Source of the DNA: Tubiluchus corallicola
Taxonomy: Eukaryota; Priapulida; Priapulimorpha; Priapulimorphida; Tubiluchidae
NCBI GenBank assembly: GCA_030141605.1
Contig: JAQGDQ010000496.1
Location: forward strand, 62,001 to 126,000
Direction: 5' to 3'
DNA: 64,000 nt
Shown: one piece after another, positions 265 to 58,905 of the stretch
How positions within the stretch are numbered: the first letter of the stretch is position 1
Layout of the letters: every line of letters starts with the position of its first letter
Made by a program: the position numbers and the translations under genes
Notes under the pieces: model-generated
Told to the model about the DNA's origin: nothing
The model's database searches: none
Seen by the model: only the letters and a program-made list of their open reading frames with translations

Positions 265-465
265 ACTGATCCATTAATAAACAGTAACTGCTCACTTTAG
301 TATTGCAGATCAAAGATGAAAGTGACAAGACTAGCTATTAAAATCTGACGACGACGATGATAAAAATTATTATGGGCAAGAAGAATTCAGTACTTTCAAT
401 GAATCATCTCAAATTTTAAACCTTTCAAAACATTTCCTAATAACATTTACTAGGAACAGGAATAC

Positions 466-25582: not shown

Positions 25583-26152
25583 TTACGATGTCGTATCTAT
25601 AGTGAGGGCCTGCACAATCCATGGATCTGACTTTGATCCCTCTCGGAATTCCTCTCTTGTCAAACGACCATCTCTGTCCAAATCCATCTGTTCAAATATT
25701 TTGTTCACCCGTTTTTCCGGTGTATCCTCGTCAGCAGGCAGATCTAGCATGCTACCAACCATTGAGTAAATGGCATCAACAATGTCCACCATTTCGGCCT
25801 TAGTGATGTAGCCATCATGATCTAAATCATACAGACTAAACGCCCACTCTAACTTCTCATCTAGTGTCCCTCTAGATGTCACGGATAGTGCCATAATAAA
25901 CTCTTTAAATGAAATTGTTCCATCTTTGTTCAAATCAAACACATTAAAGACAAATGATGCAAACTTTGATGGATCTCCATATGGGAAGAACTGCTGGTAG
26001 ATGCTCTGGAACTCTTCTTTCCGCAAAAGTCCGCTTGGACAGTCTTTAAGAAAGTCTTTGTGCCACTGTTGTAGTTCCTTCTTGTCAAAATATGTACATA
26101 GCTGCAATTCAGAGATTTCTGCTGACGACAACTTGCTACTGCTTTTACCCAT
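25583..26152 (-). CDS. NCS1: Neuronal calcium sensor 1 (frequenin) homologue, single-exon CDS
   Basis: The 189-residue product is almost the same length as animal NCS-1 (190). It starts MGKSSSKL, an N-myristoylation signal (Gly2, Ser6). [20 protein letters not shown] matches the N-terminal hydrophobic-pocket region. EF-hand 1 (about 36-47) is degenerate with the CPSG replacement typical of the family. EF2 (73-84, [12 protein letters not shown]), EF3 (109-120, [12 protein letters not shown]) and EF4 (157-168, [12 protein letters not shown]) keep the Ca2+ ligands. [13 protein letters not shown] and the C-terminal [13 protein letters not shown] segment are family hallmarks. The protein should be a myristoylated Ca2+ sensor at membranes that regulates PI4-kinase, channels and exocytosis. 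The coding region has no intron, unlike the multi-exon vertebrate gene. A non-coding 5' exon could exist upstream. Confidence 0.95.
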
Positions 26153-33200: not shown

Positions 33201-34061
33201 ATTAGTCTGCTTAGTTTTTAGCTCGTCTTCATTTTCGTCTGTTCCCGTGGATGGTACTAACTCGTCAGTTGGGTCAGTTTCACGACAGATTTCGGATGTT
33301 ATGTTATCACTGCCTAGTTCACCAGATGCTGATGATCCTGTTTGCTTTGACTGAAAATGATTTACATCTTCTATAAGACTAGGTACTTCATTAACATCAC
33401 CAGTTAAATTTTCTATTTTTGGCATCGATGCATTTTCTGAAATTTGACCTCCGCTGTCTTCTTGAATTCTAGTGTTAGTATTTAAGTCTTCATCTGGCTT
33501 TCCGAATTGAGCCATATCAGATGTAGGCATTTTGTCGAAAATGTGTGAGTTATCACTGGCTTCTCCATTTTCAGTTGGCTGGACAATGCATAATGAATCA
33601 ACTGGCAAATCTGCATTGCTCGACAGACTCAACTCACTGTTTTCAGCTTCTATAGCATTGTCTAAGTTTTCAGTTTCTGTAACAGGTACGGCAAGTGAAG
33701 AATCATTTGCAGCTTTTATTGAATCACAGACAATATTTTCTGAAGATGAGACTGACAGTTCTTTTCCTTCCTCTTTACTTTTGTTTTGTACATCACAGTC
33801 TTTGTCAGCATCAGCGGCCAAGGCTACATGATGCTTTTGAACACTTGCATCTTCCTTCTTTATATTTACCTCCTGAGGGGAAATTTCACTTTGTCCTAAA
33901 GGGCAGATGTCGTCATCAGCTTGATCACTAGGTGTGGAAACACCACTTCCACTTCCTGTAGATATCGGTGAACGAACGTTTTCCACTGGTTTCTCTGTTG
34001 TGACAGATGTATGTGCATTGTTGGCTGATGAAGACTGCTGCAACATTTGCATGGTAACCGT
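30239..34061 (-). CDS. FKBP15: FKBP15 exons 20-23: acidic Ser-rich region and LFG-acidic C-terminus
   Basis: Exon 20 (33012-34061) is one 350-codon frame opening with TVTMQMLQQ and rich in Glu, Asp, Ser and Thr, probably disordered. Exon 22 gives RLFGSDDGNDDDDAELGSLL, then FGGSS. Exon 23 gives PPPLFGDDDDDDD, then LDWLK and stop, matching the vertebrate FKBP15 end (PLFGDDDDDDDIDWL). Repeated LF followed by acidic runs resembles the LFa motifs of the WASH subunit FAM21; that link is inference. Confidence 0.9.
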
Positions 34062-37000
34062 CTGTGAAAATCAAAGGTGCAACAAAAATTAATTGTGTGA
34101 CCAATGATGAAACTAAGCATGCATAAAAACAGAGGAGACTCGAATGTATTGACAGCTAAAAAATTCAGTTTGTAAAAGACACACAACTACAAAGTAGTTT
34201 TTATTGCATACATTAAACATTAAAAGATCTAACAAACCACCTCTAAAAGAAATTAGTGAAACACCAAAGAAGACAAGGTTACCAGACATATCTAGAAGCC
34301 CAGGACCTTGTCATGTATTTTATTGCACAAAGTTTTTCAGATATGTCAAAGCACGTGAGTTTTTTCATGGCAGCCGGATAAGTAATATCTAAAGCACACA
34401 TCTAACTGCGGATAGAAAACTCGCAATTCATAAAAGTGAATTTTAGAATCAGTATGTTTAACCTTGATTGTTTTCAGGAGCATAGAATGCACGGTGGCGC
34501 CAACGTATTGTTGCTCTGAACTAAACTCGCCACATGTGATATGGTAAACAGAATTCATCACCTTTTTTACCTGAAATGAATGTCATATTAATAATCAGTA
34601 TCTCATTTTGCAATCATCATCAACTTCTCCTTACAACTGGTGATATTGCAAAATGACATCAACTGGAAATAAAAACTTCATTGGTCATGGGTCATTTCAC
34701 ATTACATCTTGCAGTCATCATCAACATGCTTCATTGAATTTAAAAAAAGCCAAGACAAAAACTGTGGTGGTAAATAAATGTGAAATAAAGAATAGGTTTG
34801 AATTTAATGTATTCACTAACATGAAAACAGAGTTTTTTAGTATGTTTAAATAAGGTTCAGTACTGAATGAGGCATACAACACGAATAAAATGCATACCTG
34901 CCGTAAGACGTTTTCACTGCCAAAATTCTCGAACTGACGTTGTAGCTCAACTGTGGTATTCTCAGCCTCCAAAGCTTGCTGTCTCCAAGACTCTGCCTCA
35001 GTTTCTGCTGCCATCAGCTTTTCTTTCAGCAACTTATAATCTCCGCCATCACAATTTACGTCTTGCTGTGGAATTGTTTCTTCTCTAGGAAAGTCACTTT
35101 TGTATTTTTCACGTTCGAGCTCTAACTTTGATTTTTCGTCTTCTAGAATTTGTATTTGTCTACGGAAGTGTAACAGTTTTTCTTCCATTACAGCTGACTC
35201 ATCATCCAATTTTTGCTTCAGTCTCACTACCTCATTCTCCGCCAATTGTCTGGCTTCTGTTATACTATCCACCTCTCCCGATCTTCCAGACAATTCCTTT
35301 TGTAGTTCAGTAATATCATCATGCATTTTTGTCACACTTGTCTCTGAGCTTCTCACATTGTTTTCAGCTTTTTCTAGATCAATTTTCAGTGACTCAATTT
35401 CCCTCTTAGCTGCCAGCAATTTTTCAGACGTTTCTGTTTTTGTTGCTGCTAACGTTTCACTCAATCTTGCTGCTTCCTCTTCTGCAGCTCGCAACTTGCC
35501 TTCGCTGACTTCTGCTATTTGCTGCAAATTTGAGCTGTTCTTGCTTCTGTCTAAAAACAGAGTTCTATATTATACCTTAGCTTTTAATACAAACAGTAAT
35601 TTCTATTCCAGAATGATGCACCAACAAGAATTTTCCAGTCAGCAGTATAACAAGATTGTTTACTTCATAAATCTGCTTTACATAGGTGCTATATTTGTGT
35701 GCTTGCAAACCTTAATTGTCCATAAGTCGGCATCGTTAAAACTACATTAAAATGCTTCAAAGTAGAATGCACCAAATTTTGCTCAAACGTCAATTTTTTG
35801 TTTTTTGTAAAAACAAATGCTAAATATAATGAACTTTCACATTCTACCATCAAACTGTCAAGAAAATGCTTAAAAAATACAAATGCTAATCTAATTTTAT
35901 AACCCCAGACTCACTTTTCTCTCTAGAAACTAGCACTACAATTGAGAAAACTCATGGGAGCAATCATTATGCTTCGGGTTCTTTCTGTCACCAAGCCTAG
36001 ATCTTCGCTTGATCCTTGACATCAATGTGTTCTTGCAAATCCACATTTGTTGCTAAGTGTTTTGTAGAAACACGACAAAAAAGAATGGCTAACTTTGACA
36101 ACGATTTTCTCAATTTACGTTTTTCAGTGTGTAGCGTGCACCTCAACTTCACAGTGGATTATCTTAGTTTAGAAATAACATAGAGTGATGAGCTTGGCAT
36201 CAAAATTATCCTCATGAAATGGAGATTCAGGATACACGAATAATTAGAAAAGGTAAATTGCCAACTTATGGACGATTTTGCTACGCAAGCACACATTTAA
36301 TGACGTTAACCTATACATTTTCGCAGTCACTTCTACAAATAAAGCTCAGTTAATTCAGTTGCACTTTTTTCTTCCTCGTAACTTTTATACTAGCATGTTT
36401 CATTGAATATTTGAACAACCTTTACAGATGATTTATAAACTTAACTAAGACATAAATTACCTTCAAGCTGAACCTCCAGAGAACCAATCAGCTGATTTCG
36501 ACCGGACAATTCACTCTGGACTGTCTGCAGCTTCTCTTCTAATTTAGCTGTTGTTTGCTGTTCTTGTTTTAACTGTGCTTGCAATACATCAGCACGTGAT
36601 ATGGCTTCAGTACAGTCTTTCATTATTTTAAGCTGTTTCATACAAAATCTTATTCAACACAAAATTCAATGTCATTTGGTATAATTTTGATGCACTCACT
36701 TTTAGGTAACAATTGGCTTATAGGTTTAAAAAACTGACCAGAAAAAATTAGAGAAACTAGACGTAGCTAGTCAACAGAGCAAGAGGAATACATTAGTGGT
36801 TATGTGACCTGGTCTGCAAATTTGAACATGGGAGGACTCGGTAAGTAAATGGATGCGTGACTGGTGGAAAAATTGCGTCCGAGTGATTTTGTCTAGGTTA
36901 TTCACTCCTTTATGTGTATCTGAATGGAACTACACACCTTTATCCATTCAGCATCATACATTAGAAGATTATCCTTAATAACAAGTTGGCTGTAGTTTCA

Positions 37001-40000
37001 CCAAAACCATCTACATTAAGTTAAGTCCTGCCATTGAGTGATGGATCCAAACTTGTAAAACGTGCGCAAAAAATGGCCGCACAATTCCTGCACTTGGAGA
37101 ATTAGTAAATAAACTGCACTTCTAAGTTTCCAACTACACGTCAATGTTGTTAACGGACAAAACACATACCAAAAACTCTCCATCAAATTCCTATAAATTG
37201 TACTATGATGTGTTTAGTTGTATTTTTTAATGAATGTTAACAATTTTATAAAGTCATAATGCATGATACCTTTTCTTCCTGGAATGTTATCATGTGATGG
37301 TGAGATTGTTCATTAGAACTCATGAACAGCTTGTTTTTCTGTTCCATCAAAGCATGACTATTTTCCAACAACCTAAAATATTGATGTACAATATCGATGA
37401 CATTTAATTTAGTAACATCGTAAAGCAATGAATGATTATTTTTTATTTCTTGATTCAATTTTTTCCTTTATGGAAAAAGATTAAAGCAAATTATAGTACA
37501 AATTGTGGCAGAGGAAACACTAGCATGTGCCATCTTCTGGAAAATGCACTTTTCAGTAGCATTGATGACAGATAAAAAGTAAAGTACTTGATTTGTAGCA
37601 GAAGCTTTCAAAATATTATTATGCTCTGGATCAAAGAATTAACAAGTGCGACAAAAACTGTAGTAACCCCATAAAAGCGCTTCAAATAACTAAACAAATC
37701 AAATTTCAAATTTTATCAATATCAAAATTTTAAAATCACACTAGGTCACAATAACAAAATTGCTACATTACAGTACAGTTTGCAAATTTAATGCCAGTTC
37801 TCCCAAAAATTCCGGTAAATGTGTCCGAGGACAGGCAGAAGTCATCTGTACACCAATCCCCATTTAGGAGTTTTTATTAAAATGACCTGAATAAGGAATT
37901 TACTGTATAAGAAAATATATGCTATGTAACATTGTGAAGTTACCAAATTGCTGTACAAAATTAATGTTGTATCAGATTCTCCATGCAGGGGACAGGCAAA
38001 TTTTTCTGGGGACAGGCAGATTTTTTTAGCTGCCCATCCAAATTTAAGTAGAAAAAATGGTTAAATTTGCACCTTACAGTAAGTTTACTTCTACTTGTAT
38101 TTCTAATTCTAAAATAGTTACTTATGGTTCTTTTCTATCAAACTTGATATTTTCTCATTCAGTTTTTCTATCTGCTGGCTTTTCTCTACACTATCTGTCT
38201 TCAGTTTCTCATTTTCCTAAAATAAAAAATATCTCATTATTTAATCATATAAAATACATTAATAGCAAACGTCACTTAATTAACATAGCTGCTTTTTCCA
38301 TTCTTAATTATGGAAGTTTCTTTTTAAAGAATAAAGAATCACTGACAAACAATCTCAAGTAAATGCAATTACTGTTTTTCCTTTTCATTTCTTACTTAAA
38401 ATATACATTGAAATACATAAACTAAATCAAAACTGATTTCTTAGTCTCGTAGCATATTTACCTGCACTAATCGTTGTATACCTGAGATCAAAACTACCGT
38501 GTCCACGTCACGGACAGGAGGCAATCCATAACTTACAACAGCTGATTGATTTTGTGAAGCTGTTTCTGATTGGACTTTGTCAAGCTACAATAATAAAAAG
38601 TAGTTATGAATAACAAACAGCTGCAATTAATGTAAAAATTTGTACTCATTAGTTTTCTTCCCAAAAAGGCACTTCCAGCATCTGCTATTCAACACAGATT
38701 GTAATACAAAACTACATCACAGCAACTTAAACTGTCAACAAGTAAATTCAAACTGGAATTCAAACTGATAAAGGCTATTGAGCTCACAAAAACCATTCTA
38801 GTAATGAGTAGCATAGATGCTAGCATAGATGCTTTGTAAAATTACATAATTTTACTCGACTGAAATGGCTTGTTGAGGAAAATTTGCTTACATAAATACA
38901 AAAGTGCTAAAGCAAGTCCAAAGGTGACATTCTTTTTATACCTGCACAAAAGTAATATTTCTTTTTCTATGTTACAATTATTGGACATAGTCAGTGTCAA
39001 ACAATGTTTCTAATTTACACTGTTACACAAAATTTAAGCGTACTACTAGAGATTCTTATAGTTTTCATACAGGTTTCGACAAGTTTTTACAAAATTTGCA
39101 AGTCTCCACTTGCAAATTCTTCACTTTCGATGAAACATGAAACAAAGTCATAGGGACCTAGAAATGAACACAGTTATGGTCCTTTCTCAAACACGATTTA
39201 AAACTATTGACAGATGGTGCTTGAATGGTTTCCATTGGTAATTTGTTCCAAGGATCGACGATGTGGGAGGGAAAAAGGTGTGATCGAATACTGATTCGTG
39301 AAAAAGGAAGAAATAGTTTGGCTAGGTGTTCACAGAGGGGTTTAGAAGGGCATAAAAAATCATTTTCCTGGAGGATGGATGCTCTATTCATTATCTTATA
39401 ACAGTTGATGTTGTTCTTATAACGAATGATGTCACTCTCCGTTGTTCCAGAGTTGAAATCGCAGAAAAGTCAGCGTCTTCAGCTACTCTAACACATCGGG
39501 TTTTTTCCAGAGATGCTTTAAGAGGATGGTACTGCAGGAATCAGACTACTGAAGCATACTCAAGAATTGCGCGCACAACAGCTTTTAAAGTGAGATAATT
39601 ACGGGGCTTTGTTGGATGTAATACAACGTTTGATCACGCCTGCGTATTGATTCGCTTGTGAAAATAATATTGCTTATGTGGACATTCCACTTTAAATCAT
39701 TCGTTTTTGTGATGTCAGGATCTTTAATAGATTATTTATCCTCAACCGGTCCATCTTTAAGATAATATGGAGTTTGACTTTTAAGACGGTTACGCAAAAG
39801 ATGGTTCTTGCTTTTTTAAAGCTCCAATAACCATTCTTCACACCACTTTTCAATGTTGTTCAGGCCGAATTGTAGTAAACACCCATCGCAGTCGTCCCAT
39901 ATCACGGATGGTATGTCAACATACAAGGTCAATGATTTTCCAGTTGATATGCAATTTATAATACCGTTTATGAAAATTAAGAAACAATGGGAACCAACTG

Positions 40001-43000
40001 AGGGATACCACTGCCAACATGCTTGCAACTTGTGGTTATGCAATTTAAGATCACACATTGACAGCAGTTTGTCAAGAAGTACTGGAACCAGGTGAGAAGG
40101 TTGTCTCTTATTTCTGTGTATAACATCTTTACCAAAAGATGTGGATGCGGCACCAAGTTGAAAGCCTTTTTAAAGTCAAGGTACAGAACATCAAAACCTG
40201 GCAGAGGAGGTGTTCGAACCACTCTGTTCAAGCAAGAAAGTAGATTATTTACTGTTGATCTATGGGGAAGTGAGACATGCTGTTTCTGGTATGTCCTAAT
40301 CAGAAAATATAAAACCTCATCTCACAGAATGGCTTCCATGCATTCGGCAACTACTGAAGTTAAAGATAGGGACTTAGGTTCAATGCCAGGTTAAGGCATA
40401 GGCTATAACCAAGGGGCCTCTGCTTGCTGAAGGGTCTTCAGAGATTAATTAAATAACACTAAAAGATAAATTAATTTACTGTGAAAAGTTACTTCAGAAT
40501 GAGAGTAGAAGCATGCTGAATAATCTCTATAAAAAAGGGCTCAATTAATTAATATACTGTATAATAATACACTGGAAATGTTTTCTTGACCATTATTCCA
40601 ACTCATTGGTACTGCCACACTGGCAATCCCAATTATAACGACACAGTTTTATAGGAATTGAGGTCACATATCTCTGTCACATATATACGAAATAAGATAT
40701 CTCAGTCCTAAGAGAACTTAGTGGTAGTTTGCCACTAAACCTCTAGCCTACTGAACCTCTGGATTAGGTATTCTCAGGCATGGTTCTTGAAGTTGAAAGA
40801 CCTAGGACAATGCTGTGTGCAGCATGCATCTTGAATCAGTTGTGAGCAACGTGCACTATGCGCATGCTAGAGATTTGAAGCGGCACTGCGTCTTTATTTA
40901 ATTTTATTTAGCCTTGACAAATAATTTTATTTATGTATTAACTTTTGCAATAATTCATGGTTATAAACACGCACACACATAGTACCTGAATTATGAACAC
41001 CTTAAATCATTATGAGGATAAAGATGCAAAAAAACTAATATTAGCTTATTTCCACTGTGATTTTCTTATTAGTTATATTCAACGTTTTTAGTTATATATA
41101 TATAGGGACTTTATATATATATATATATATAAAAACTAATATTAGCTTATTTCCACTGTGATTTTCTTATTAGTTATATTCAACGTTTTTAGTTATATAT
41201 ATATATCAAAGTCTATAATACTCCATTGAAAAGAAATAAAAGAAATGTGTCTAATTATAGTATAAATGCGCATATTTATAGTAGCCTCAAAGAGTCCATT
41301 GATAAATAAAAGCTAATTAGTACTAGTGACAGTATATTTTATGATATACGATAAAATACCAGTAATTTATTTATTGTAATTCATAACCGTGAGTAATAGT
41401 TAGTATTTCAAAAACTTATTTTAATTTTGTAAATATCAGAATATCTCTTCTCTTTTTGTTGTGTTAGACTTGCACCTGTCTATGTGGGTCTAATGTTGGC
41501 ATTATGTTGTAGAAGTTGAATAAACTGATTTGAAGAATTCGACATTCATGCTTTTGTTAACCCTTTCAGTCCCAAATTATTTTTTTAATAAGAGAAAATT
41601 TGCAAAAAAACGACTTTTTTAAAAGCACAACAAAAGCAAAAAATTTGCTTCATTCTGTAACTGCTGATAATTTTTTAAAGTATTTAAGACATTTAGTATG
41701 TATGCTATGCTGATCTGTACAAAGTCGTCTCTAAAGTACTGTACCTTGAGCAGTTTTTTATGCTATGTAGATTTTCTAGTTTGCCATTTTATCACCATTT
41801 TTAGTCTATTGTTATTGGCTTAAATCAAAATAACTATTAACTGACCAAATAACTGTCAGTTTTAAAATTTTATTAATTTTAAAGGCAGAAAATATTCTCG
41901 TATCCCACAGGATACAACGGGTATGAAAGGGTTAATCGTCACAGTATCTGTAGCCCAGGGCCTACAAAATCAAAATCTGACCCGCTTAGATTATCACAAG
42001 ATGAGCTGGTAGAGGACTATAACATGGAGTAGGTCTCTAAAACAGCAAAAACAGTACTAGCAACACGATAGCCAAGAACAAAAATAACGAACATAAATAC
42101 CTTGGTTGTTAAATTATCCAATTTATCCTGCATTTTTCCAATGGCTAATCTTAGCTCTGTGTTGACATTACGGCTTTCAGACATGAACATCTGCAAACAG
42201 ACATGAACATGAACAAGTTAAAGCAACTGACTGACCTTCGTTATTTGAGTCAAAAGCTGTGAAAAAAATAGTAAAGAAATTAATAATGAAATAATCATAA
42301 AAAACTGAATTATTATAATTCACAGGAAACTTATCAGCAATAATAGTTCAATCACTTACAATTTAATAATAGAAAGAACGAACGGGGTGTTGTGCAATGC
42401 ACAGATAAATCATTTGCAATATTTTAACACGATAGTTTGGCTCTCTAACTGAACAAATAGGAAAAGCCTACTGATTCACTGCAACATTGAGCCAAGGTTA
42501 CTTCTAGCCATACATGTGACAAATATCAGACAACTCAGGACAAAATCATTATCCAAGGTCTTCCACATTCTACTACTACTTATTTTAATAATAATAATAA
42601 TAATACTACAATACTACTACTTATTATTATTATATTATAATATACTACTGATTACAATAATCAGCCAAAAAATGGAAAGACAATATGCTTTCATACAGAT
42701 ACTTAATGTTGACATAATGTTGACAAAATTTTGTTGACAGTAGATATCTTTCTACCATAACCTAGAGTTAACCACATGTCCCTGTGTTCATTTGGCACAT
42801 GAATTGACACACACTGCAGAGGTAACGGCAGCACATTTTTAGTTTTGATCATAAGCACACATAATAGGCCATTGTCTCAGTGATTGAAATACAACAAACT
42901 TGTAAGCTTGGATCCACTGCAGGAATAGCCGACTGCTGTTGCACCGGTACTTGTGGATACAAGGTCTGCTGATGAATAGGTGTACTTGGATGGACATAAG

Positions 43001-44514: not shown

Positions 44515-47500
44515 CGACTTGAGCGGAGACGAATGTAGGTACAAATGGCACAGGTAAAAATAGCACAGGGAAAAATGGCACGGTAAAAATGACATAGAAA
44601 AAAGTGGCACAGGACAAAATGACATAGATGGAAACGTAGGTAAAAATGGCACACTTAACAAAATATGGATTTAGGGTTGGGCTTACTGTGGGGTATAATT
44701 ATTTTAGTTATTTTTACCTCTGCCAAGGAAGTCATGCTTCAACACAGTTTGTCTGTTGCTTTTTTTGTCTGTTATAACAGTAACCCTATTATGCAAAAAT
44801 TACCATACAAATTTCGACGAAACTTTGTGGAGGTGGTTTTGAGTGCCAATGGGCATTTTTTGGCACGTTCTTTTTCGCAAAACTTGACCGAACACCACGA
44901 ACAAAAGCACCCGCGAAGTACTTCGTGGAAATGTAAGAGGGGCTGTTTATTATTATCTGCACCAGGACAAACAACTACATGTTAGTTCCAGCTTCCATTT
45001 CCAGAAACTTTTACTTGGAAAATTGTGAAATGTTGTCTATAACCTTTGCTTTTTAATGTAAACATATACGAATATGTCAGTCGGTTACCATCGCCAAAAT
45101 TTATGGTTAAAGAAAGGTAGATAAATACTATGTGGAGCATTCGTGCATTATTGATTATAATGCTACTTAAGGAACAAAATATTTTGTGCCTTTTGCCAGT
45201 CTATATGATACGAATACAGGTACATTTTTGTATATTTGCTTGTTTATCTTTGATTTATGTTTTTTTAATCAAAATAATCAGATCATTAAATTTAGGAATG
45301 TTTTACATTTTTTAATAAAAAAATCAGACAAATAAGTTTAGGATTGTTCGACTTTGGCACAGATCTGCTTCCTACTGAGCATGGTCTAGTTGTATTATAG
45401 AAATTAACTGCATTAAAATAACATAAAATAATCACTTTTTCCTGTGCAATTTTTACCTCTTTTCTATTTGTGCCCATTTTTCCTATGCTATTTTTTCCTG
45501 TGCCCGTTTTTGCAGTGCAATCTTTTCATGTGCCATTTTTTTCCGTGTCATTTTTACCTGTGCCATTTTACCCATTTCTCCATTTGTCCCATTTTTACCA
45601 TGTCAATTTTGAAGCATAATTTCCTTGGCAGAGGAAAAATAACTAAAATAATAATCCACCACAGTAACCCTAACCATAAACTCATTTTACTAAGAGTGAC
45701 ATCTTAACCTACACTCATGTGAACTGAAATTTGCACAGAATGACCTAAGAATTAATAGGCTGCGAGTTTGACCCATACCCTACCCTTATGTCAAGTGTCA
45801 ACTTTTAACATTTCTCCAGAGCCGAGACAGATAGACAGAGCAGAAAATTTTACAACTGCCCATTTTGTTGGGGCAACTAGGAAACTATAACCTAGGCTAT
45901 TTTACCTACCTGATTACTGTCATTTTCTTCATTATCAGATTCCTGCTCTTGGGATGCAGCCGCACTAGGCAACATCTGGTGACCCATTTTTGCCATTCTG
46001 GAGATGAGCTTTGCCTTGTCTGTACTTGTTGGTGAATGCTGAAGAACAAAATCCAACAAATGACATTTCTAAAATCAACGTGGATATGAAAGGCTACACT
46101 CTTCTTGTTGCTGTGGCTAACAGATATTTACTTACAATGATTACTTCTTTACTAAACCATTTTGGCAAAGAGCATCAAGTTCGATTATTATGTTTATTAA
46201 TCAGATAATTAAATTCAGTTATTGGCTTTTCTAATACATCTAAGTAAATTTTGCGCTGCTTGCTTTACTGTTGAAATTTCAAATTTGCAGGTGTAATCAC
46301 ATGATTAATAGTCATGTCACAATGCCTTTAGCATGGTACCTGGTATCCACGGCTACCAGTCTAAAGGTACAAATAACTTTTGACCTATAGCTCCAAACTA
46401 CCACTGCAAGTGCCACTAGCAAAACTCTAAATGAGTTTATTCAAATGCCACATCAGCCCTATTTGCAATTAATCACACTGTGAAAGCAAGTTGTCACTGT
46501 TCTATCCTTAGTGTTTCAGAGTGGCTATAATACAAATTCTAAAAATCTACATTAGCTGGACTGAAAAGTTCGCTAAGATACCCGGGGTTCCTAGGTGAGC
46601 CTGAAAATCTTCATCCTTCCTGCTGCCCATTTTTAAGGACATTCAATGTGTCAGCTAAATGCCTTGGTGTACTAAGGTCAGTAGAATTAGAAATTAGTGG
46701 TTCCGATGCAACAAAAAGTAACTTTACTTTGTTTTGTTTTGGCAAAATGTCGTGACACAGCTCTTTCAAAAATCTGTATTTCGAACACGACGCTCTACAA
46801 CAATAAAGTTACTCTTTACTTCACCAGTACCATGATTTTTATCACCAAACTGAGATTTTTTCTTTCCATAATTAAAAAGGCCATCTACGTAATTCATACA
46901 ATAGTAACTTACATGTGACAGTTGTTCCGTAAGCGAGGCAGTACGTTCCTTAATGCTTTCGGCTCTGGGCTTTACTTGTACTGTTTCACTTTCTGCTGAT
47001 CTGACGTCCACTTTGGAAGTATCTTTGTGCGACTTAACCTATCAAACAAAACCAACTATTACCTGAACTAAACAGTTTTTCAGTACACTAACTACTAACC
47101 ATCACCAAAACATTTAACCAAACCACATTAAAAAATCATTATCTGTTCTTTGTACATTATAAGATATAATAGAAAATCCAAAATAGCAAAAAGTAACGGC
47201 AAAAAATGAAAGTGAAATACGAAGGCAGCCTTTGAAAAAGACATTTAGTAAAAGTTCACGATAAGTTATATAATAGTACCAGGTGACTAAGATATTCGTA
47301 ACAAACTTATACTGGTTGTTCAGGTACGACATACATTCCTTTGGTTTCAAAAGTATGCAAAAAGGTGCCTATGCATCGCATGTTTAGGCAACTATTCACA
47401 CATCCTCGAGTTGTAGAGGCCTATATGGGTATAGGCCAGCTCTAAAAATATCTACGCATTTATAAATTACAGCAACCATATATTGGTGTGTTCACTACAA

Positions 47501-50500
47501 ATACAATTTAAAAGAAACATACAATGTTCAATTCAAAGCAGCTTCTACTCACACCAACAACCTCAAGCTGGAAAATAAGAGTGCTGTTAGGTGGAATCCG
47601 ATTTCCCATGCCTGGCTCTCCATAACCAATATGAGGAGGAATTATCAGCATCCTCTTTCCACCAGTTTTCATCCCTCTAATACCTTCATCCCAACCCTAA
47701 TTTGCATAAGATAAAAAAACATACATAAAAATTTATGATGTCGAAACATCAAATGTGAAATAAATCAGATCTTTATTCGAGCGGGTGCTGGCGATTTACT
47801 TTCCGATTGCTTTTAGGTAGATAGGCACAACTAAGCCATATTATTAAAATATTTAAATAAACAATAATCTGACCTTACAGAGGCAGTTCCACATAAAATC
47901 ATTTGCTCTGTTGAGGTCAAATAAATTACGGTTTTGTAATTTCCTAACAAGTTGTAATAATTACAGCATAAACTTCCTAAATTAAATTTAAAAAAGACAT
48001 CAAAAAATTAAAAAACAGTGAATTGCATCGCATTTCAGGGTTTTCAAAACATGACAGAGGCAACTAAAATTTGCAGTTTTCACTAAACAGCATAGTTATG
48101 AAGCTGAAGAATGTTACCCCTCAGGTAATGCTCAGGTAATGCTTACTACTGCATTAGTATTAAACACATCTTACACAGAGGTTACAAGGAAGACAATAAA
48201 ACTGGTAATGATTTTTGAATAAAATTCACTGGATTAGAAGCACTATTAACAAAAACACGGCCTCCAAATTTGAAAAAAACTACAAATAACTAAATCTTGT
48301 TCATTGTTCAGTTACCTAGAATTTTTGGCACAACCAGTTAGCGAAATGCGATAATATGAAGATAACACTTTGTGTAAAAAATTATAATTAGCAAGTTTAC
48401 TTACACATTGACAAATACAAATGCTCAGTAAAGTAATAGTGTTGACATTTGGTTTAAATGAAGCATGTTTCCTTAAAAATGATTTATTAACAAACATTAC
48501 AATCATTACTGAGAACAAACTGCTGCTTTGGTTGATTAAAATAAACTTTGATTATTGGTCAACAACTCACTGTAAAATTGAAATTAGATTCAAGGACCTG
48601 ACTTAATGTAAACCAATAAAAGTGCGTGCCAAATGTTTTGCGAATTGAGCTTCAAAGCCTTGTTTGCGGACAGGGCCTATTTCAAGGGGGGGAAGTGGGG
48701 ATACTTCCCCGGGGCCTCACCCTCCAGGGGGGCTTCGCGCCGAGGTAACTTTTTTTTTTTGCTTTATACGAACATACTGCCTCCTCTCTCTCCCTCTTCC
48801 TCTCTTGCCGCACGCGCGCCGTGTGCGAGTATTGACAAGTATTAAGGAATAAAAAGCAGTTTTTCTTTCAATTGCTCTTTCCTTTAACAACTGTATAACT
48901 CCATATTTTCTCTTCGAAAATGCTTCTCCTAGGCCTTGTTTGCGGAGTAATATTTTGCGATGCACTATTCTACACGAAATATGCAAGTTCAAAATTGATA
49001 GAATTTATGGCTTTATTTTGCAGTAGAAAGCACACTACCAAACAATAATGGTATCCTATTATTAATATTATTGTTTGTATTAAATGGGTTGAATACAAGA
49101 ACCTATACATTCAACGGTGTCTGCTTTTGCACAGTGAGCGAGTTGCACCTTTAGCAGCTTGAATTGTGATGACAACAAGCAACAGAACTATGTGGTGCCT
49201 CTCTTTAGCTAATCATTTACACTTGTACCCACCCGTAAACTTAGTACTAGTATTATCCCGTAGTTTATAGTTTATAATAAATTAATAAAACTGAAATGCC
49301 CATGCTAAAAACCTGCAGTGTCTTAAATATTAGTGTAACTTATGCATCTGGCTCTCCTTGCAGAATTCTCAGACAATTCAGGACTAATTTTACAGCTTAC
49401 AGCATTTTGTGCTACTTTCGGACTTTAGATTTACCTAAATTTTACTATGGTTGGCTTTCATTTGTCAAAGAACATTTAGTAATCTTGCAATCCTAAGACA
49501 TGTTGTGCAATTACAGTAGCTACTGTATGCCGATTAACGTGAAAATTTTTATGCATGTATATTTTTTAGAATAGTAAAGCAAACGCTTTTAACATTGATA
49601 ATATGTTAGAGCAGCAAGTGTGGTCTGATGAATTTGCTTTTGCTAAATGACATAATTAGTTGCAGGACACCAACAACATTGCTGCCTGTTTTTGTTTTAA
49701 TCATCACTGGTTTGTATCCGTCAGATAACATCACTTGTACCATAATTCCTCACAGCTGCTTGTGGTTTCTTATTAAAAAACTGGACATATTCTAAACTAA
49801 AGCTGCTGCCTGTCCTTGTCTTAGTTATCACTGGTTTTGTGCTATATTGGCGGGCAGATGACAACACACATACCATAGTTTCTCGTAACTGCTTGTGGTT
49901 TCTTATTAAAAAACAGAACAGACTCCTAACTAATTACATTTGATATTTTAGTACAAGTTTTGCAAGATGTAATTTTAAACTTCACCCATATCATTTGTCT
50001 TCTCAATGGATATCACACATTAAAATTTCTCACACCTTCCAATTTTTAGAAAAATGTCTAAATAAGCTGCTATTTTGCTGGTTTGACAGATAAAGACACA
50101 ATAGCACACAGCGAAAAATATCTGCAATCATAATAGACATGGTAGCTCAAAACTAAACACCAACATTAATGCATTCTCAAAAACACAGTTAATCAATATC
50201 AGAAAATGATCACCTTTATCACCTTTCCGCTGCCAATTTTAAATTGAAAAGGTGTCGCATTGCTGGTATTCGAATCAAAAAGCTTCCCAAATGCATGGTC
50301 AGTGAACAACCAACCTGAATATTTGACTTCTACTGAATCTTTCTGCACAAGAGAGTGCCCAGTGCCAATTTTCAGATCTTGTGTGATGAGTGAAGAGACC
50401 GCGGATGAACTATTTGCTCGAGCTAAACCTATCTATAGAAAATATCAGAAACACATTCTAAAATAACTAAAAATCATATGCTTGAAAGACCTTACAATTT

Positions 50501-53500
50501 GTAAGTAACTGCGGTTTTCTGACTCATAATATTATAAAGTAATAAATTTAAAATGATTACTGTCAATGATAAATTTTTGGGATTTTCACAAAGATACACG
50601 CTGTTTTCTACAAACAACACGTGAATTTTTGCCGAATTTTAAAAAGGTTATTTGCAGACCTTGCTTTCCAGACTTGCACAAAAACTAATACAGGAAAAAT
50701 TTATTTAAAGCAACCTGTTGTTGAAAAATAGGTGCGGCGTATGTTAATAAATTTCTTGAAAAAACAAATGGGATGCTTCTAACAAAAAATAATGACATTA
50801 ACCTGTACGCAAACTAAGTCATAAATAAAATGCCAAAAAATGGGAAAAGAAACGAGAAACCTCGGTTATTTAAATAATCAACTAGATTATTAGAATCACA
50901 ACTCGGTAAATCATATCAATCAAGAACAGGGTCATAACATTCCAATGGCATTGCCTATACATACACATATATATTTGTGTGCTTGCATAACAAAATCATC
51001 CATAGGTCGGCAATTAAGCTTTTCTAGTTATTCACATATCCTGAATCTGCATTTCATGAGGATCATTTTAATACCAATCTCTATGTTATTTCTAAGCTGA
51101 AATAATCCACGTTGAAGTTGAGGTGCATGCTACACACTGAAAAACATTACCCAGAGAAAATCGCTGTTAAAGTTAGCCATTGTTTTTTGTCGAGTTTCTA
51201 TAAAACACTTAGCAACCACACAAAAGTTGGTTGCTACGGACTTTGCAAAAACACAATGATGTTATGCTTAAATCCAGTAGATGGCTCTCTCTTTCTGATG
51301 AAAATCTGGGCTTGGCAACAGAAAAAACCCGAAGCAAAATGATAGCTTCCATGAGCTTCCTACTGGAGTTTGACAATACAAGTTTTTCTCAATTGCAGTT
51401 TAGTTTCTAGACAGAAAAGTACTTTTTAAACAACTTCCTTACAATTTGGTGCTAGAATATTAAAGTCTAACATATTTAGCAATTATTTTTATAAAAAACA
51501 AAAAAATTGACATTTGAGCACATTTTTGATGCATTCTACTTTGAAACATCATAAAATAGTTACAACTGTGCCGACTATGGACGATTTTGGTATGCAAACA
51601 CGCATACATATATATGTATATGCATATATATGCATTATAATCATCCCATTTCAAACTGATCTCATTTCATTTCATTTCGATCTGAGACATCTCAAGTAGC
51701 AGAGCAAAGGCAGCTGATGCACTGATCCTGAGTTCAAATTCAGATCTACACAACTTTTTGGCACAACATTTTTAACAGATTATACATAATGTGATTTTTT
51801 TCTGATAATCTTCAAAGTTAATTCATTTTTGGCTTACTGCAGTTAAAACATCTCCTACCTGTTTAGCAAACTCGATTATGTGATCCTCATTATCACACAA
51901 AATGCACCAGTTTTGCCCCTGAATATCATAAAAGCTGGCATAGTTGTTCGCTTGGATCTAAAACAGACAAATGTACGAAAGTTAATCATATTCCATTTAA
52001 GATAATGAAACCAGCCCTCACTATGGTACTTCAGAAATGACCATAGTCATTGTAGTCACAGTAAAATAAGTGGAATCTTGCTAATTTAGATCAGCGATTC
52101 ACAGTAAGCTAACTACAATAGGTTCCACTTAAGAGACTCACTTTGGGAGAAAAAGTGTTTTGACCACTTAACTGACTAAAACTGTTAACCGGGGTGTAGC
52201 TTTACTACTATAGGAGTCATAACTCATCAGCTTAACATGAACTGCAAAAGCTCTAAATGTATTTCAGAAATGAGCTAATGCCAAAATATCTAAGTCTATT
52301 ATTTAAGAATATGGGTACAAATTTATATAAGTGAATTAATAAAAAAGAAAATCAAAAAATTAAAGAATCGCACAAGTCTGTTTATTTACACTAAAAATTA
52401 CAAAGTTGGTTGCAAGGTCAGTTACTTCATTTCTTCATGAAAAAGTTGGTTTATAAAGTTCTCATGCTGATAAAAATGTTGAAAATCTGTTGCCATGGGC
52501 TGGTGATTAAGTGTTTAGCTTCCAAAAACAATGAGATTAACCGCAACTGATAAGCAGGTAACAGATTCAGAGCAAAACCGCTGTGCTAGCATATAGCATG
52601 TGAAAAATGCACAGGTCAGCTAATAAACAAAACGGTATTTACATGATTGTTTCTACGCGCATTATAGTGCTCAAAAGTAAAGTAAATCTAACATAAACAC
52701 AGCAAAAGCTCTTTCGTCACAGACATAAAATAATTTTGTCTTCTTTTAAGCACAAGAAGCAAAAATATTGAGTCAATTGTCAGCAGTTTTTATATGGATT
52801 TGAATAAGAGCAGCTCATACCAAACATTTTTGAAGAAATTAGGTAATTGATTCTATTAACCGTTAGTTTGGCAAACAGCGCCTTAAATTCATCAAACATG
52901 CTTTTAACAGCCTTGACTTTCTCTGTAAAAACGGATTTAAAACTTTTTTTGCAAATTTAGAATAATTGGTTTTCCTTATTACAAGAGACATATTAGACCA
53001 ATTAATTATAGTAGCCTTTCCAGAAGTTGTACAGTCATTTATTACATAAACTAAGCCATACAGAAAATTATCCATACAAATAACAATGTCTTTAGAAACT
53101 ATACAGTTGAACAATTTTGGTACTTACCATAAAAGAAAAATTGGCAGTTACAGAGGCTTGAGCAATTGGCTTTTGATTCTTTATGTAGAGTAGTAATTTG
53201 TGCTGAAAGATTACATTATTGAACATTCAAATCAAATTGAAAAAGTTCACACAAGTGAAAAAACTAACTCAAAGAAATACATAGTAACTTCCGATGAGTG
53301 CTTGCTTTAATATTTTTTTAATTAATATATTTTTAATTATTTTTTAATTAATTACAAAGATATGTTTAAACCAGAAGAATTCTGATAGTGAATAAAATAT
53401 TGGCTAAATTGAAATATCTTTCATTAGATTAAAACAAAATTTTGTAATACACTGCACATGTTGTACTAATTATTTACGATCTTAGTTTTGTGAGAATTTT

Positions 53501-56500
53501 CAAAGCCATTTTCCTTTATAAAAAGTAAAACTATCACAAAAGCAAAGCAGTAAGTAGTTAGCACACATCTAATGTCCAGTATAGCTTGTCATGATATAAG
53601 CTTATGGGCAAAGAAATAATACAAGGAATGTGGACTGAAAACCTGAGTGCAATTTATTTTACAATTTCAGCAAAATGATTTTAGTAAAATTATTTAAGCT
53701 GATAAAGAATTTTATAGAATGCTTTCTATATCTTCACTGATTAACTATTTTCATTTATAGCAAGCTGATTTTATGGATAAACAACTTTAACTTATGTCAA
53801 GCCATGTTAAAACTATGCTACCAGAGTACCTTGAACTATTCTACCTGCATTTTTCAGAAATGAGACTAAACCATATTAGACAATGTATGACATAATTTTT
53901 AGCAGAAATTACCCCATATCAAAAGTTAATACAGTACATAAAATCAGGACAGTAAAACAAAATGTATAGAAATGATGATGTTTGTTCCCTATTAGTTGAA
54001 GGTAATGAAATCACTTCAAAATGACTCACCTCTCCAGTCGCGTTATTACCAATAATAGCAGCTCCCAGTTTGCCTTGTTCTTTGTAATGACCATCAATGC
54101 TGGAAAACAAGTCATATATTATAGGTTTATTTTGGAACGCACAAGCGCTTGAAAAATTTGGCAAGGCAAAACTCAAAATTCAAAATATTATATATAATTT
54201 CAATACTAGCTTAGCAGAAATAATAATCGCAGAGAAAATATCTGCTTTCAGAATTATTCACTTTTAAAATCATTCATTTTCAGTAACAATCATTTCTGAA
54301 ATCATTCACTTTCAACTTATTCTTCATGCCGTTCGCTTTCAAATTCATCAACTTTCGTTCTGTTTCAAAGTCACTAATTTTCAACATCATTCACTTTCAA
54401 AGTTCATTCACTATCATCTCCTTTTCATATGATTCTCTTTTAAATTCATAAATTTACTTTCAGTATCATTCTCCACACAGCTAGAAACGAGGCTCAGCAC
54501 AAACTGGCATGTACAACTGTACACGTTATAGTATCATACGTACAATTTAAAGCAGTGGACGGCAGTTGCATGTTTAACGGTCATTGCTGATCCTTGACCC
54601 GTATTTTTGGCACTAGCTTTAGAAGCACTTGAATCAGTTTCTGCAACACATATATACAACTAACATTAGCCAATATGAAATGCTGACAGATTCTCGGCAG
54701 GCTAGCAGGTATAGCTATTAGAAATACTTGAAATGCAGTTTGTTCATTATATTCAACCCAGCACTAGGCACTGTAACAAGCTAATTTTATTGATAAACAA
54801 TTTTCTAACATATAAATTTACATTAGTAGGACTTCAAACTCGATGATGAGAAAAGCAACATTGTATTCTGAAAGAGAAGCCCAGTACACCAAGAATGAGG
54901 TTTGGCATGGAAAGTGTAGGTGCTAGTGACACCTGGTGAACATTTTCGAAATCTTTTTAGTTTAACATTTTTAAATTTGTTGTATTACAGTCAATCAGAC
55001 GTCAGAAGCCAACTTTCGGTATAACTACCTGACTTACCTGACCTAATTTACCTGTTCATATTGACTAATGTGAGCGATTATGCCATTTTTTTCATTCTGA
55101 TAAACATAATAATTTTTTGTGATCCAGGAAGCCATTTTAGTCACCAAATTGTAAATTTTGTGAATTCAGATTCTATTAACTTTCTCTTATAAATTAATGT
55201 AAGCATTAACTATTTTTGCTATAAGTTAGAAACATATTAGGTGATACACATTATATTTTTGTAAAACTTCTGTAAATTCCCATTTTCACCTATTAATCTG
55301 TTAATTACTTCTTTGTTGTTGCTTAGAACCACTTTTTTATACTGAATAAATTAATTTCAGGTTTATCCCACCAGGCAGCGCCGGACTTAGCTTTTCTTTT
55401 GAATGTTTTACCTGGGCACAGGTATTGTAGTTTTCAGCAGATGATGGACTATAGCAGCTGCAAAACTGATATGTAAACTCAGAATTGTCGTCACAATTTT
55501 CCAGTCATTTCACTCTAAACAAAACTTGCTCTTAATGTTTATTCAACTTCTTTGCTTTAAGAAGGCAACTCTATTTGCAAAGCTTTTCCTCTCATATTTT
55601 CCAACTGAAATCTTCATATTGTAATCTGTGAGTTCTTTCGTATTGACTCCTAATGATGCACTCCTCAATAACAAGACGCAGTTATAAATTCCATTCATCA
55701 GAGCATTGTCATTATAGTGTAATGCACTCTAATATCCTGTATTTAACACAATAAACCGTTTCACTGTTCCAGCAATTGATGGTGAGCGTGAAAAGGTCAA
55801 AGGTTAAGTGAACCAGACAACGTACTTGTGTATACTTGAAAACACCTCACAGCCCATGCTATTGTAATAGTAGTTAAAAACAGGAATGAGAACTACGTAT
55901 AGAACCTTACCTACTTCAGTTTTCTTGTTCCAAAGCAAGGTCCCAAGATCCCAAGCAAGTACACTTAACCTCTGACCTACAGCAACTACGTGTGTGCACA
56001 ATGAAATTCTGAAAAAGCTTACTCACATAACATAACACACATGCAGGAACGTTTTTTTGCAATGTTCCGCAAACTCTCTATTCAAATGTAGAATGGACTT
56101 GTGTGCCTTTTACTGTTTGAAAACCCCAATTTATAATAGTAGCATTTCATAGCATCGATTATTGCCAGAAATCATTAAAGATCGACATATATGACAAAAG
56201 TGACAAGCAATTGAAAAAGAATATGTCACAATTTTTTCATTGTTCATACAACATTATGCGTGGTTTGTACTTCACCTATTTTTGGTGTAACAGCTCATGC
56301 CGCACAAGTGGTTTGAGCCATAGATATGTGTGTAGCCACAGATATACGATGTGGTGTGCCTTGGGTAGGTAGAAGGAGAAAAAAGATGGTGTGCCAAGTT
56401 GGCATTTTTATTTTTTGTTTAACAATTGATATAATACTGAGTGTGAACTATTTGCATAAAATAAATATTTATTTTGTGTTTGGAACAATATTTGCGAGCT

Positions 56501-58890
56501 GTAAATCTTTGAGTAGTACATCTATATCAGTCTGTCTGTTGGGTACATACAAGTTTCCTTACCTGTTAAATTTGGTTTTGCCCCTTTAACTGTCATCAGT
56601 CATGTGACCAGGTAGATGGCCAGGTAGACATTACTCTAACTTGAAATACAAGTTGATATGATGTGAAATATGTGAATTGATTTGTATCATTTCGCAAGTT
56701 ATAAGTGCCAAAACTCAGGGAGACCACATGTAAGTGTTTAATTATCTTTGTTGTAACTGCTTTATATAAATAGGGCTATATCGCTAATATTTTTTGTATA
56801 ATTATAATAGAAAATCGCATAATCTAATTTACTAATTTACCTGCATCAAACTTTTATTTTTTGCTGAAAACTCATTGCTGTAATTTATTGTTACAGATAA
56901 AATGGCAATTGCCTCATATTAAACATATTTGGATGTTCTGGGGTGTAAATGTAGTACACTGTTAGACATAAGAATTTCTCCAACCATCTGGTCGACAGCT
57001 TTTATTTTAATCCATTGACATGATTATTTTTTCTAACAGCATGCACCTAAATAATTGCACGATATGACACGCATCATCACGAAAACAAGAGAAATATGTA
57101 CAAGCCTCTGTTTTCTTCTGCAACAGAATTATGATATGCAAGTTCATGAATGCCAACAGTTATTAAATTAAATATCCGACGGGTATTGTGTACTGACTTC
57201 GTGTGTAAACAGTGCATTCTCAAAGCATGTGGTTGCTAAATCTTTCAAAGATAAATTTCCCAAAACGTTTCAAAAATTTTAACATGTGTGATTTTTGAAG
57301 AAAATGGATGAATTTAACACCAGGCCTTGATTTACAGTTTTTCCCATAACTAGGTAGCAAATTTACCTTGCTACATTCATCCTACATTCTACCTTATATG
57401 CAAAAGTAATTATTAGATGCTGTAGCTCGATCATTTTAATAGCTTTGCGACTTGGGACTGTTTATCTTTATGCATGACTACATGCAAAAGCTTATTACCT
57501 TGGTCATCAGCATCAAAATCTTTATGAACTTATTTGGCATTTGAAAGAATTATACACAACGTAGTTTAATAAAACTTACCTGGTTCTAACTCATGTTTCC
57601 GTGGTTGCTTAGGTGCTGTGTAAGTAAGACTGTTATTGCTCTCCTCAAGTCTTTGATCCAAGTTGAAAAGAGAACCCAGTTTGCTCCTAAAAGTGTTTCA
57701 AGAGTAACAAATCAACAAATAAAGTGGCTTGATAATCTGCTGACATTCAGTTTAATAATACACAGTATATACAACTTTTGGCTATAAATATACCTACTTA
57801 CATTACAATTATAGGCATGCATTTAAATGTATATACATGAAATGTTGTAACAGCATTTTGCAGTCGTGACACATCTATATTTGATATTCCATAAATTAGC
57901 CCCACCCCACTTTTTGTTGTTTACTAATCAATTGCTTTAAACATATTCTAAATCCAAATATCTTTTTCCAAAAATAAGACGAAGTATTTTCAGGTTTCTT
58001 TAGTTGCTGTACATACCAGATAACTAATTATGAAACGCTTTCAGTTAAGCCTGTACTTGTACTTGAAATCCAAGTACAAATTTATTGTACAAAGCTCAAA
58101 TTATTAGAATCCATTCGCAGCTCTTTCAACAATGAATATTGGATCAAAATTTAGAAGAGTGAAGGTAAAATTGCCACGTTGAAAAAGCTCAATAAATGAA
58201 AAGTTTGCCAATTTGCCATTTGACAATTTTAATCAAAGCTTAATATCTTTATCATAGAAAATACAGTGAAGCTTCTGACAAGTCACTGAATTTTCCAATA
58301 GGATAAACTCTTAATCTTTGAAACATAAAAGACATAAATCTATGTGAGTTTAGAGCCATATGTTCAGCTAGCTTTTAAGCCTCCAGTCTATCAGCCGTTA
58401 AATTATCATCGTTATCACCAGAAAATGAAGCACTGTTTACTGTTCGAAGTAAAAGGATTCACAAAATTTTAAATTAGTGCCCCAAAAAACAGTTGCGTGA
58501 ATTATTTATATGAAAAAGACAACATTGTAAAAAAACATTGCAGGTATTTCGATAATGTTAAAGATATATTACTGGATAATTTTTGGGCATCTTACAAACC
58601 ATCACTGAGAACATAATATCTTTTTGCTGCCTGAACTATTTGATACAAAATGAATTAGTTGATTGCGTTTGAAATTTTAGGACTGCCAACCAGCTGTAAT
58701 TGGTGACCAAATTTAGTCAGCACACCTTAGCCTTCTAGAATATCAACAAAATCACAAAACTGTAAATGCTTATCTCCTCAGAAGAAATTTAGCGATTCAA
58801 GTGTTACTTTTCTTAAATGGTCTGTTTGTATAGCAAAACCGGTACTTACTTGCCCGCCAATGAAAAGTCGTCATCATCTTCTGAAAACAT
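30239..58890 (-). CDS. FKBP15: FKBP15 homologue (WASH/endosome-associated FK506-binding protein), 23 coding exons
   Basis: Exons, 5' to 3' on the minus strand: 58850-58890, 57580-57686, 54544-54640, 54030-54099, 53128-53202, 51859-51957, 50214-50432, 47553-47696, 46913-47038, 45910-46038, 43301-43493, 42900-43069, 42101-42190, 38462-38584, 38122-38216, 37270-37372, 36461-36632, 34898-35550, 34463-34570, 33012-34061, 31531-31649, 30530-30677, 30239-30313. They sum to 4206 nt (1401 residues; human is about 1219) with every phase consistent. The order is an acidic start (MFSEDDDDFSLAG), the KLGSLFNLDQ and LTYTAPKQPRK motifs, a WH1-like region (about 70-165), an FKBP domain (about 182-285), the KAKLISRMAKMGHQMLP motif, a Pro/Gln-rich linker, coiled coils (about 490-900), the VKKVMNSVY block, a long acidic Ser-rich region and an LFG-acidic tail. 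An in-frame ATG 15 nt upstream (58905) is possible, but 58890 fits the family start and has a better Kozak context. Confidence 0.93.
32215..32425. repeat. Tandem repeat, about 2.5 units of 82-94 bp
   Basis: GTGACCTGAAATGCATCCTA (32217), GTGACCCAAAATGCATCATA (32299) and GTGACATGAAATGAATCCTA (32393) start successive diverged units in FKBP15 intron 20. Confidence 0.8.
34463..38584 (-). CDS. FKBP15: FKBP15 exons 14-19: coiled-coil region and conserved VKKVMN block
   Basis: Exons 14-18 encode heptad-rich sequence, for example EKSQQIEKLNEKISSLIEKN, QLKQEQQTTAKLEEKLQ and KLRAAEEEAARLSETLAATK, forming about 300 residues of predicted coiled coil. The single large exon 34898-35550 carries 217 codons of it. 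Exon 19 (34463-34570) encodes VKKVMNSVYHITCGEFSSEQ and ends LLKTIK, matching the conserved VKKIMNQVF...NTIK block of vertebrate FKBP15. Confidence 0.88.
35696..36295. mobile_element. 0.6-kb MITE, copy 1 (TIRs about 35 bp)
   Basis: The left end TGTGTGCTTGCAAACCTTAA continues to GTCCATAAGTCGGCA, and the right end at 36295 is its diverged inverse (GGACGATTTTGCTACGCAAG, then CACACA). A second copy in opposite orientation lies at 50976-51608, about 15 kb away in the same gene. Both are intronic in FKBP15 and have AT-rich flanks. No transposase frame was recognised. Confidence 0.75.
39050..40400 (-). mobile_element. Non-LTR retrotransposon (LINE) reverse-transcriptase relic
   Basis: In FKBP15 intron 13, minus-strand frames in series encode FDVLYLDFKKAFNLVPHPHL (RT motif DFxKAFDxVPHxxL), then GSGIPQ and FLIFINGI (SGVPQGS...LFxIFIND). 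LYVDI follows in place of the F-A-D-D catalytic motif, then IEKWCEEW, and finally RSHLFPSHIVDPWNKLPMET, the post-RT WNxLP motif. Several frame changes and the altered catalytic motif show it is dead. Boundaries are approximate. Confidence 0.8.
41030..41206. repeat. Tandem duplication (period 101 bp) with (TA)n
   Basis: AAAAACTAATATTAGCTTAT through GTTTTTAGTTATATATATA occurs at 41030 and again at 41131, nearly identical, separated by a (TA)n run. It lies in FKBP15 intron 13. Confidence 0.95.
41557..41935. mobile_element. piggyBac-type MITE with TTAA target duplication
   Basis: TTAACCCTTTCAGTCCC at the left (TTAA 41557-41560) mirrors GGGTATGAAAGGGTTAA at the right (TTAA 41932-41935). The TTAA duplication and CCCTTTCA termini are characteristic of piggyBac-superfamily elements. 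The 371-bp interior has no transposase. Confidence 0.8.
42582..42660. repeat. TAA/TTA-rich simple repeat
   Basis: Imperfect AATAAT and ATTATT runs in FKBP15 intron 12. Confidence 0.8.
44480..44514. repeat. (TTA)n microsatellite
   Basis: About 11 ATT units just left of the TIR element copy B. Confidence 0.95.
44521..45700 (+). mobile_element. Copy B of the TIR element with 14-bp minisatellite, near complete
   Basis: Terminal blocks of about 75 bp are inverted copies. The left block (about 44668-44755) has GGGTTGGGCTTACTGTGGGG and CTCTGCCAAGGAAGTCATGC. The right block (about 45610-45690) is its complement, with GCATAATTTCCTTGGCAGAG and CACAGTAACCCTAACC. Arrays of AAAAATGGCACAGG-type units flank or adjoin both, at 44535-44655 and, inverted, 45440-45600. 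The core shares AATGCACGAATGCTCCACAT (in reverse) with copy A at 10175-11025. It is in FKBP15 intron 10 and has no recognisable transposase. Confidence 0.75.
47553..50432 (-). CDS. FKBP15: FKBP15 exons 7-8: FKBP-type peptidyl-prolyl isomerase domain
   Basis: The two exons code for the FKBP fold (about 182-285). Pocket positions, in FKBP12 numbering, read Tyr26 (Tyr201, VKYSGW), Phe36-Asp37 (215-216, LFDSN), Phe46 (225, PFQF), Val55-Ile56 (234-235), Trp59 (238, GWDEG), Tyr82 (261, IGYGEPG), Ile91 (271, RIPPNS) and Phe99 (278, LIFQLEV). His87 is replaced by Met. The exon junction falls between VIK and GWDEG. The catalytic and drug-binding residues look largely intact, so isomerase activity is plausible. 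Confidence 0.9.
48657..48946. mobile_element. 262-bp GC-rich insertion flanked by 14-bp direct repeats
   Basis: GCCTTGTTTGCGGA occurs at 48657-48670 and 48933-48946, a perfect direct repeat that looks like a target-site duplication. The insert starts CAGGGCCTATTTCAAGGGGG and holds a GC-rich block (CTTCCCCGGGGCCTCACC) and a pyrimidine-rich stretch (CCTCCTCTCTCTCCCTC), unlike the AT-rich surroundings. It lies in FKBP15 intron 7. Confidence 0.6.
49681..49930. repeat. Tandem duplication, period 124 bp
   Basis: GCTGCCTGTTTTTGTTTTAA (49681) and GCTGCCTGTCCTTGTCTTAG (49805) begin two diverged units, each ending CTGCTTGTGGTTTCTTATTA. It lies in FKBP15 intron 7. Confidence 0.85.
50976..51608. mobile_element. 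0.6-kb MITE, copy 2 (inverted relative to copy 1)
   Basis: The left end TGTGTGCTTGCATAACAAAA continues to CCATAGGTCGGCA, and the right end is GCCGACTATGGACGATTTTG followed by TATGCAAACACGCATA. Its reverse complement aligns along its length with 35696-36295, with shared words such as TTCAAAGTAGAATGCA and GTCAATTTTTTTGTTTTTTA. Flanks are (TA)-rich. A 76-codon frame inside (51112-51342) is part of the repeat, not a gene. Confidence 0.75.
51690..51755 (+). repeat. Possible tRNA-derived SINE or tRNA relic
   Basis: CTCAAGTAGCAGAGCAAAGG resembles an A box and D-arm, and GAGTTCAAATTCAGATC follows at the B-box position. No clean acceptor stem. Confidence 0.35.
51859..57686 (-). CDS. FKBP15: FKBP15 exons 2-6: N-terminal TAPKQP motif and WH1-like domain
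   Basis: Exon 2 encodes SKLGSLFNLDQ and LTYTAPKQPRKHE, matching the conserved lead of vertebrate FKBP15. Exons 3-6 encode TAVHCFKFIDGHY, then KEQGKLGAAIIGNNATGE, then KLLLYIKNQKPIAQASVTAN, then NNYASFYDIQGQNWCILCDN. The order and spacing match the FKBP15 WH1/EVH1-like fold, which is thought to bind partners of the actin or WASH machinery. All exon joins preserve phase (1, 2, 0, 0, 0). Confidence 0.88.
54250..54475. repeat. Degenerate minisatellite of about 16-bp units (TTCACTTTCAAAATCA)
   Basis: Many variants of ATTCACTTTCAAA/CATTCATTTTC occur in tandem across about 220 bp of FKBP15 intron 3. Confidence 0.8.
54641..57579 (-). other. FKBP15 intron 2 (about 2.9 kb)
   Basis: GTAAGT donor and TTGCAG acceptor. 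AT-rich, with no further exon (phase 1 to phase 1 join is complete) and no delimited TE seen. Confidence 0.6.
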
Positions 58891-58905
58891 CTTGGATTTC
58901 AGCAT

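Follow-up and report, generated by a model that had tools for sequence, protein, structure and literature searches.

The window, by which we mean the whole 64,000-nucleotide stretch of Tubiluchus corallicola DNA analysed here, carries an FKBP15 gene whose FKBP domain has a canonical pocket. In the explanation that we consider quite probable, its product is a predicted working FKBP on endosomes, and the pocket was lost later in vertebrates, in which the scaffold was kept. The gene has multiple exons on the minus strand and runs from about 58905 to near 30500 of the window (~28 kb). Its sequence makes it a well-supported candidate for the sole FKBP15 (WAFL/FKBP133) gene of this non-vertebrate animal, grouped with no other FKBP.

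The first part of the gene was joined by hand from 10 exons, across which a frame of 374 codons stays open. Every internal exon of this part is preceded by AG and followed by GT. The features of the gene are as follows.

58850-58905, minus strand: first coding exon, ATG at 58905, donor GTAAGT
57580-57686, minus strand: exon with the SKLGSLFNLDQ...YTAPKQP block, AG/GT sites, in frame
54544-54640, minus strand: exon in which the WH1-like region begins, hand-joined open frame
54030-54099, minus strand: exon of the WH1-like region, hand-joined open frame
53128-53202, minus strand: exon of the WH1-like region, hand-joined open frame
51859-51957, minus strand: exon of the WH1-like region with NNYASFYDIQGQNW, hand-joined open frame
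50214-50432, minus strand: first half of the FKBP domain, with Y26, F36, D37, F46, V55 and I56 (FKBP12 numbering), from alignment and Pfam FKBP_C
47697-50213, minus strand: intron dividing the FKBP domain, GT...AG, phase 0
47553-47696, minus strand: second half of the FKBP domain, with W59, Y82, I91, F99 and the 80s loop (YGEPGMGNRIPPNSTLIF), from alignment
46913-47038, minus strand: linker exon ending in SLTEQLSH, hand-joined open frame
45910-46038, minus strand: exon with the KAKLISRMAKMG signature block, matching the provisional human reference sequence
42050-42200 (approximate), minus strand: downstream exon with FMSESRNVNTELRLAIGKMQDKLDNLTTK, an open frame resembling FLMTEARQHNTEIRMAVSKVADKMDHLMTK of the provisional human reference
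34870-35560 (approximate), minus strand: coiled-coil exon, an open frame with weak coiled-coil family matches only
33000-34060 (approximate), minus strand: acidic low-complexity C-terminal region, open frame

The in-frame ATG at 58890 (MFSEDDDDF...) is a likelier start than the upstream ATG at 58905, which would add 5 to every residue number. The N-terminus resembles the MFGAGDEDD of the provisional human reference sequence. The frame at ~35560-34870 is long, charged and helical, and its matches to tropomyosin and other coiled-coil proteins were weak and sub-threshold. Searches of Pfam and of PDB sequences with the N-terminal (WH1-like) region gave no match. Additionally, pieces of a non-LTR reverse transcriptase-like frame were seen at 39158-40321 (minus strand), apparently inside an FKBP15 intron.

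The exon join 50214/47696, on which an earlier sequence-only reading had relied, held up at the level of the DNA sequence: it has GT/AG sites in phase 0, shares one frame with the eight other exons and yields a complete FKBP domain. On the minus strand, the exon 50432-50214 is bounded by the acceptor CTATAG and the donor GTGATC, and the exon 47696-47553 by AATTAG and GTGAGT. Because an in-frame TAG lies directly ahead of 47696, translation of the domain's second half requires splicing. A second exon matching this half was not found in the intron between the two (47697-50213). The same intron contains a 79-bp direct repeat (49722-49933; 80% identical, starts 133 bp apart).

The assignment to FKBP15 made in that reading was borne out by FKBP15 blocks flanking the domain on both sides, by the coiled coil and the acidic tail, and by the tree described below. 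The human FKBP15 sequence used for comparison is a provisional reference, presumably correct in the main. Because exact runs are common to it and to this independent genome (YTAPKQP, WLF..H..G..FDS, GSGKVIKGW and KAKLISRMAKMG), we regard it as credible in general, the pocket segment aside. The first about 370 residues of the window protein were 43% identical to this reference sequence. Moreover, the window gene and vertebrate FKBP15 (WAFL, FKBP133, FKBP135; the provisional human reference) have the same order of parts, namely an acidic N-terminus, YTAPKQP, a WH1-like region, the FKBP domain, KAKLISRMAKMG, a coiled coil and an acidic tail. The domains of both, the human one again from this reference, contain the motif WLFxxHxxGxxFDS with four extra residues. 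A protein search of the T. corallicola assembly (343.5 Mb) returned one FKBP15-like match, indicating a single copy, and no other FKBP of the genome exceeded ~50% identity to the window domain. No FKBP15 relatives were found in IMG/VR, and a PDB search for human FKBP15 returned no chain, the best matches being other FKBPs. A literature search on invertebrate FKBP15 found nothing relevant, and no human FKBP15 peptide sequence is printed in the literature searched.

For the pocket, human FKBP12 served as the reference, after it had been checked to be identical to PDB 1a7x. The window domain was identical to it at 10/10 pocket positions (Y26, F36, D37, F46, V55, I56, W59, Y82, I91 and F99), which are Y201, F215, D216, F225, V234, I235, W238, Y261, I270 and F278 when counted from the Met at 58890. 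The sequence-only reading had listed these residues and had proposed the alignment with FKBP12 as a check; all of them were present, and only its Ile271 needed correction, to Ile270. The 80s loop (GYGEPGMGNRIPP) is equal in length to that of FKBP12. In addition, the domain matched Pfam FKBP_C (PF00254) with 103.9 bits against a cut-off of 21.1, and its E-value of 5.7e-30 indicates that this is not a chance match. Its profile and pocket place it in the FKBP-type peptidyl-prolyl isomerase family, with isomerase activity as a prediction. Although alike in pocket and 80s-loop length, the window domain and FKBP12 (FKBP1A, PDB 1a7x) are 48% identical; the former has four additional residues ahead of F36 and has Asn, Met and Arg in place of R42, H87 and I90, the FKBP12 residues that contact calcineurin. 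Because of these three substitutions, an FK506-bound window domain would probably not inhibit calcineurin.

The human FKBP15 domain, as given by the provisional reference, looks different. It has Leu at F46 and Val at Y82, its I91-P-P segment is replaced (ACAVGSEGVIGWTQATDS), and it keeps 7/10 pocket residues, whereas the window domain keeps 10/10. This provisional human domain scored 86.8 bits in Pfam, compared with 106.9 bits for the window domain cut to equal length. In a published table, human FKBP15 is given as No/No for FK506 binding and PPIase activity (Table 1, PMC8836061). FKBP15 and AIP were left out of FKBP heat-maps because of their low sequence similarity to other FKBPs (PMC6406343), and another alignment excludes both human domains (PMC5745455). 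The earlier statement that vertebrate FKBP15 is rewritten here and poorly active is backed by these papers and by the provisional human sequence, from which the change of the segment comes. With human FKBP15 listed as inactive and the window pocket intact, vertebrate FKBP15 most likely lost an ancestral property.

The ancestral state was approached through a scan of genome contigs with the window domain as query, which supplied 80 loci containing 122 prokaryotic FKBP matches. Apart from F46, every pocket residue was kept in 116-121 of the 122, F46 in 70 and the complete ten-residue pocket in 68. These counts are biased upward, since the sample consists of sequences selected for resembling the window domain. 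Judged from them, Y82 and I91 are the FKBP family default, and nearly all FKBPs have the canonical pocket. In a tree of 46 rows (LG+C20, 106 columns, prokaryotic FKBPs as outgroup), the window domain and the one FKBP15 reference, the provisional human domain, were sisters with a support of 97/80. The end branch of the human domain (1.68) was almost threefold that of the window domain (0.6), and because of this long branch its place rests on few columns. Since regaining all pocket residues after a loss is implausible, the ancestor common to the two domains was most simply canonical. The view that this lineage keeps the ancestral state is therefore favoured by parsimony, given a near universal pocket and two sister domains, and from the two FKBP15 sequences compared, the canonical pocket appears to be the starting state of FKBP15.

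The closest bacterial FKBPs were up to 57% identical to the window domain, compared with 48% for FKBP12, with weak tree support for the placement; identity across the aligned bacterial rows was about 42-51%. Bacterial FKBP-type isomerases (e.g. PDB 2ke0 and 4dz3) were also the best single-domain PDB matches and have the same pocket, but they are stand-alone enzymes without the WH1-like and coiled-coil parts of the window gene. The greater nearness to bacterial FKBPs than to FKBP12 would suit an origin in which another FKBP supplied the canonical domain, through exon replacement or gene conversion, and the vertebrate state is not a loss. The sister grouping with human FKBP15 speaks against such an origin, as do the WLFxxHxxGxxFDS motif and four extra residues common to the window domain and the provisional human sequence and the lack of any FKBP above ~50% identity in the same genome. 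On the sister grouping and the common motif and insertion, we judged it unlikely that the canonical pocket came from exon replacement, and we give this origin very little credence.

The intact pocket might instead be a proline-peptide docking module of an endosomal scaffold, its residues persisting for fold and binding, with catalysis irrelevant. Mammalian FKBP15 is endosomal, binds VPS35 (retromer) and the tail of FAM21 (WASH complex) and is of unclear function (PMC4024763, PMC3714738). That it operates with these complexes and no activity has been reported would fit docking, and the residues of the pocket contribute to peptide binding and to the shape of the core as well. However, D37 and Y82 are kept alongside the whole pocket, which is the canonical FKBP pattern, and we hold docking alone to be rather doubtful. 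It is somewhat more probable than not, in our estimate, that the gene is simply an ordinary ortholog, that the canonical pocket persists in most FKBP15 proteins of non-vertebrates, visibly so in public predicted proteins, and that the vertebrate change alone is notable. The canonical residues are the family default, and in all other respects we see a standard FKBP15 gene. This reading is compatible with our preferred explanation and bears on how unusual the finding is.

Under the preferred explanation, a canonical FKBP15 later losing its pocket in the vertebrate line, where the protein would be retained as a scaffold, the window domain would fold as a working FKBP, able to bind X-Pro peptides and catalyse their isomerisation and with some affinity for FK506 or rapamycin. 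The coiled-coil scaffold, whose mammalian counterpart attaches to retromer and to the tail of the WASH complex, may bring it to endosomes, making the protein an endosomal scaffold combined with a prolyl isomerase or a proline-peptide binder. A search with PF15255 (FAM21-type family) gave no match, and the controls were likewise silent. A more specific proposal, which we regard as speculative, is that ancestral FKBP15 was an active FK506-binding endosomal isomerase acting on WASH/retromer partners, that it became a pseudo-isomerase on the vertebrate stem and that non-vertebrates retain its use in endosomal actin control.

The window gene belongs to a known family and has the default pocket, so that it is a surprise relative to vertebrates only. 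Very likely, the public predicted proteins of other invertebrates already show the same pocket residues, and for an ordinary ortholog the evolutionary point is both plausible and modest. Neither C. elegans nor Drosophila has a conserved FKBP15 (PMC4024763), and this absence may be why non-vertebrate FKBP15 has received little attention. If the contrast with vertebrates holds, FKBP15 shows how, within one orthologous gene, an enzyme domain has become a scaffold, which would suggest an endosomal prolyl isomerase step hidden from mammalian work.

Several other features were seen in the window and the assembly. A single-exon frame of 196 amino acids at 25583-26173 (minus strand) is close to the neuronal calcium sensor NCS-1/frequenin, with EF hands, and is either an intronless copy or an intronless gene. 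Apparent exons at 16000-22016 (plus strand) encode an Ig-like single-pass membrane protein with the hydrophobic segment LVIGLVVLIIGMLVIAVVALLF. Three assembly contigs (C1531, C1299 and C2218; loci L002, L003, L007 and L008) carry bacterial-type FKBP genes without introns, which suggests a bacterial symbiont or contaminant. Finally, contig C560 (L022) has a partial 18S rRNA match at 398-1080 (minus strand; model 1118-1823), probably a fragment, with a tRNA match ~440 bases away at 1520-1593 (minus strand).
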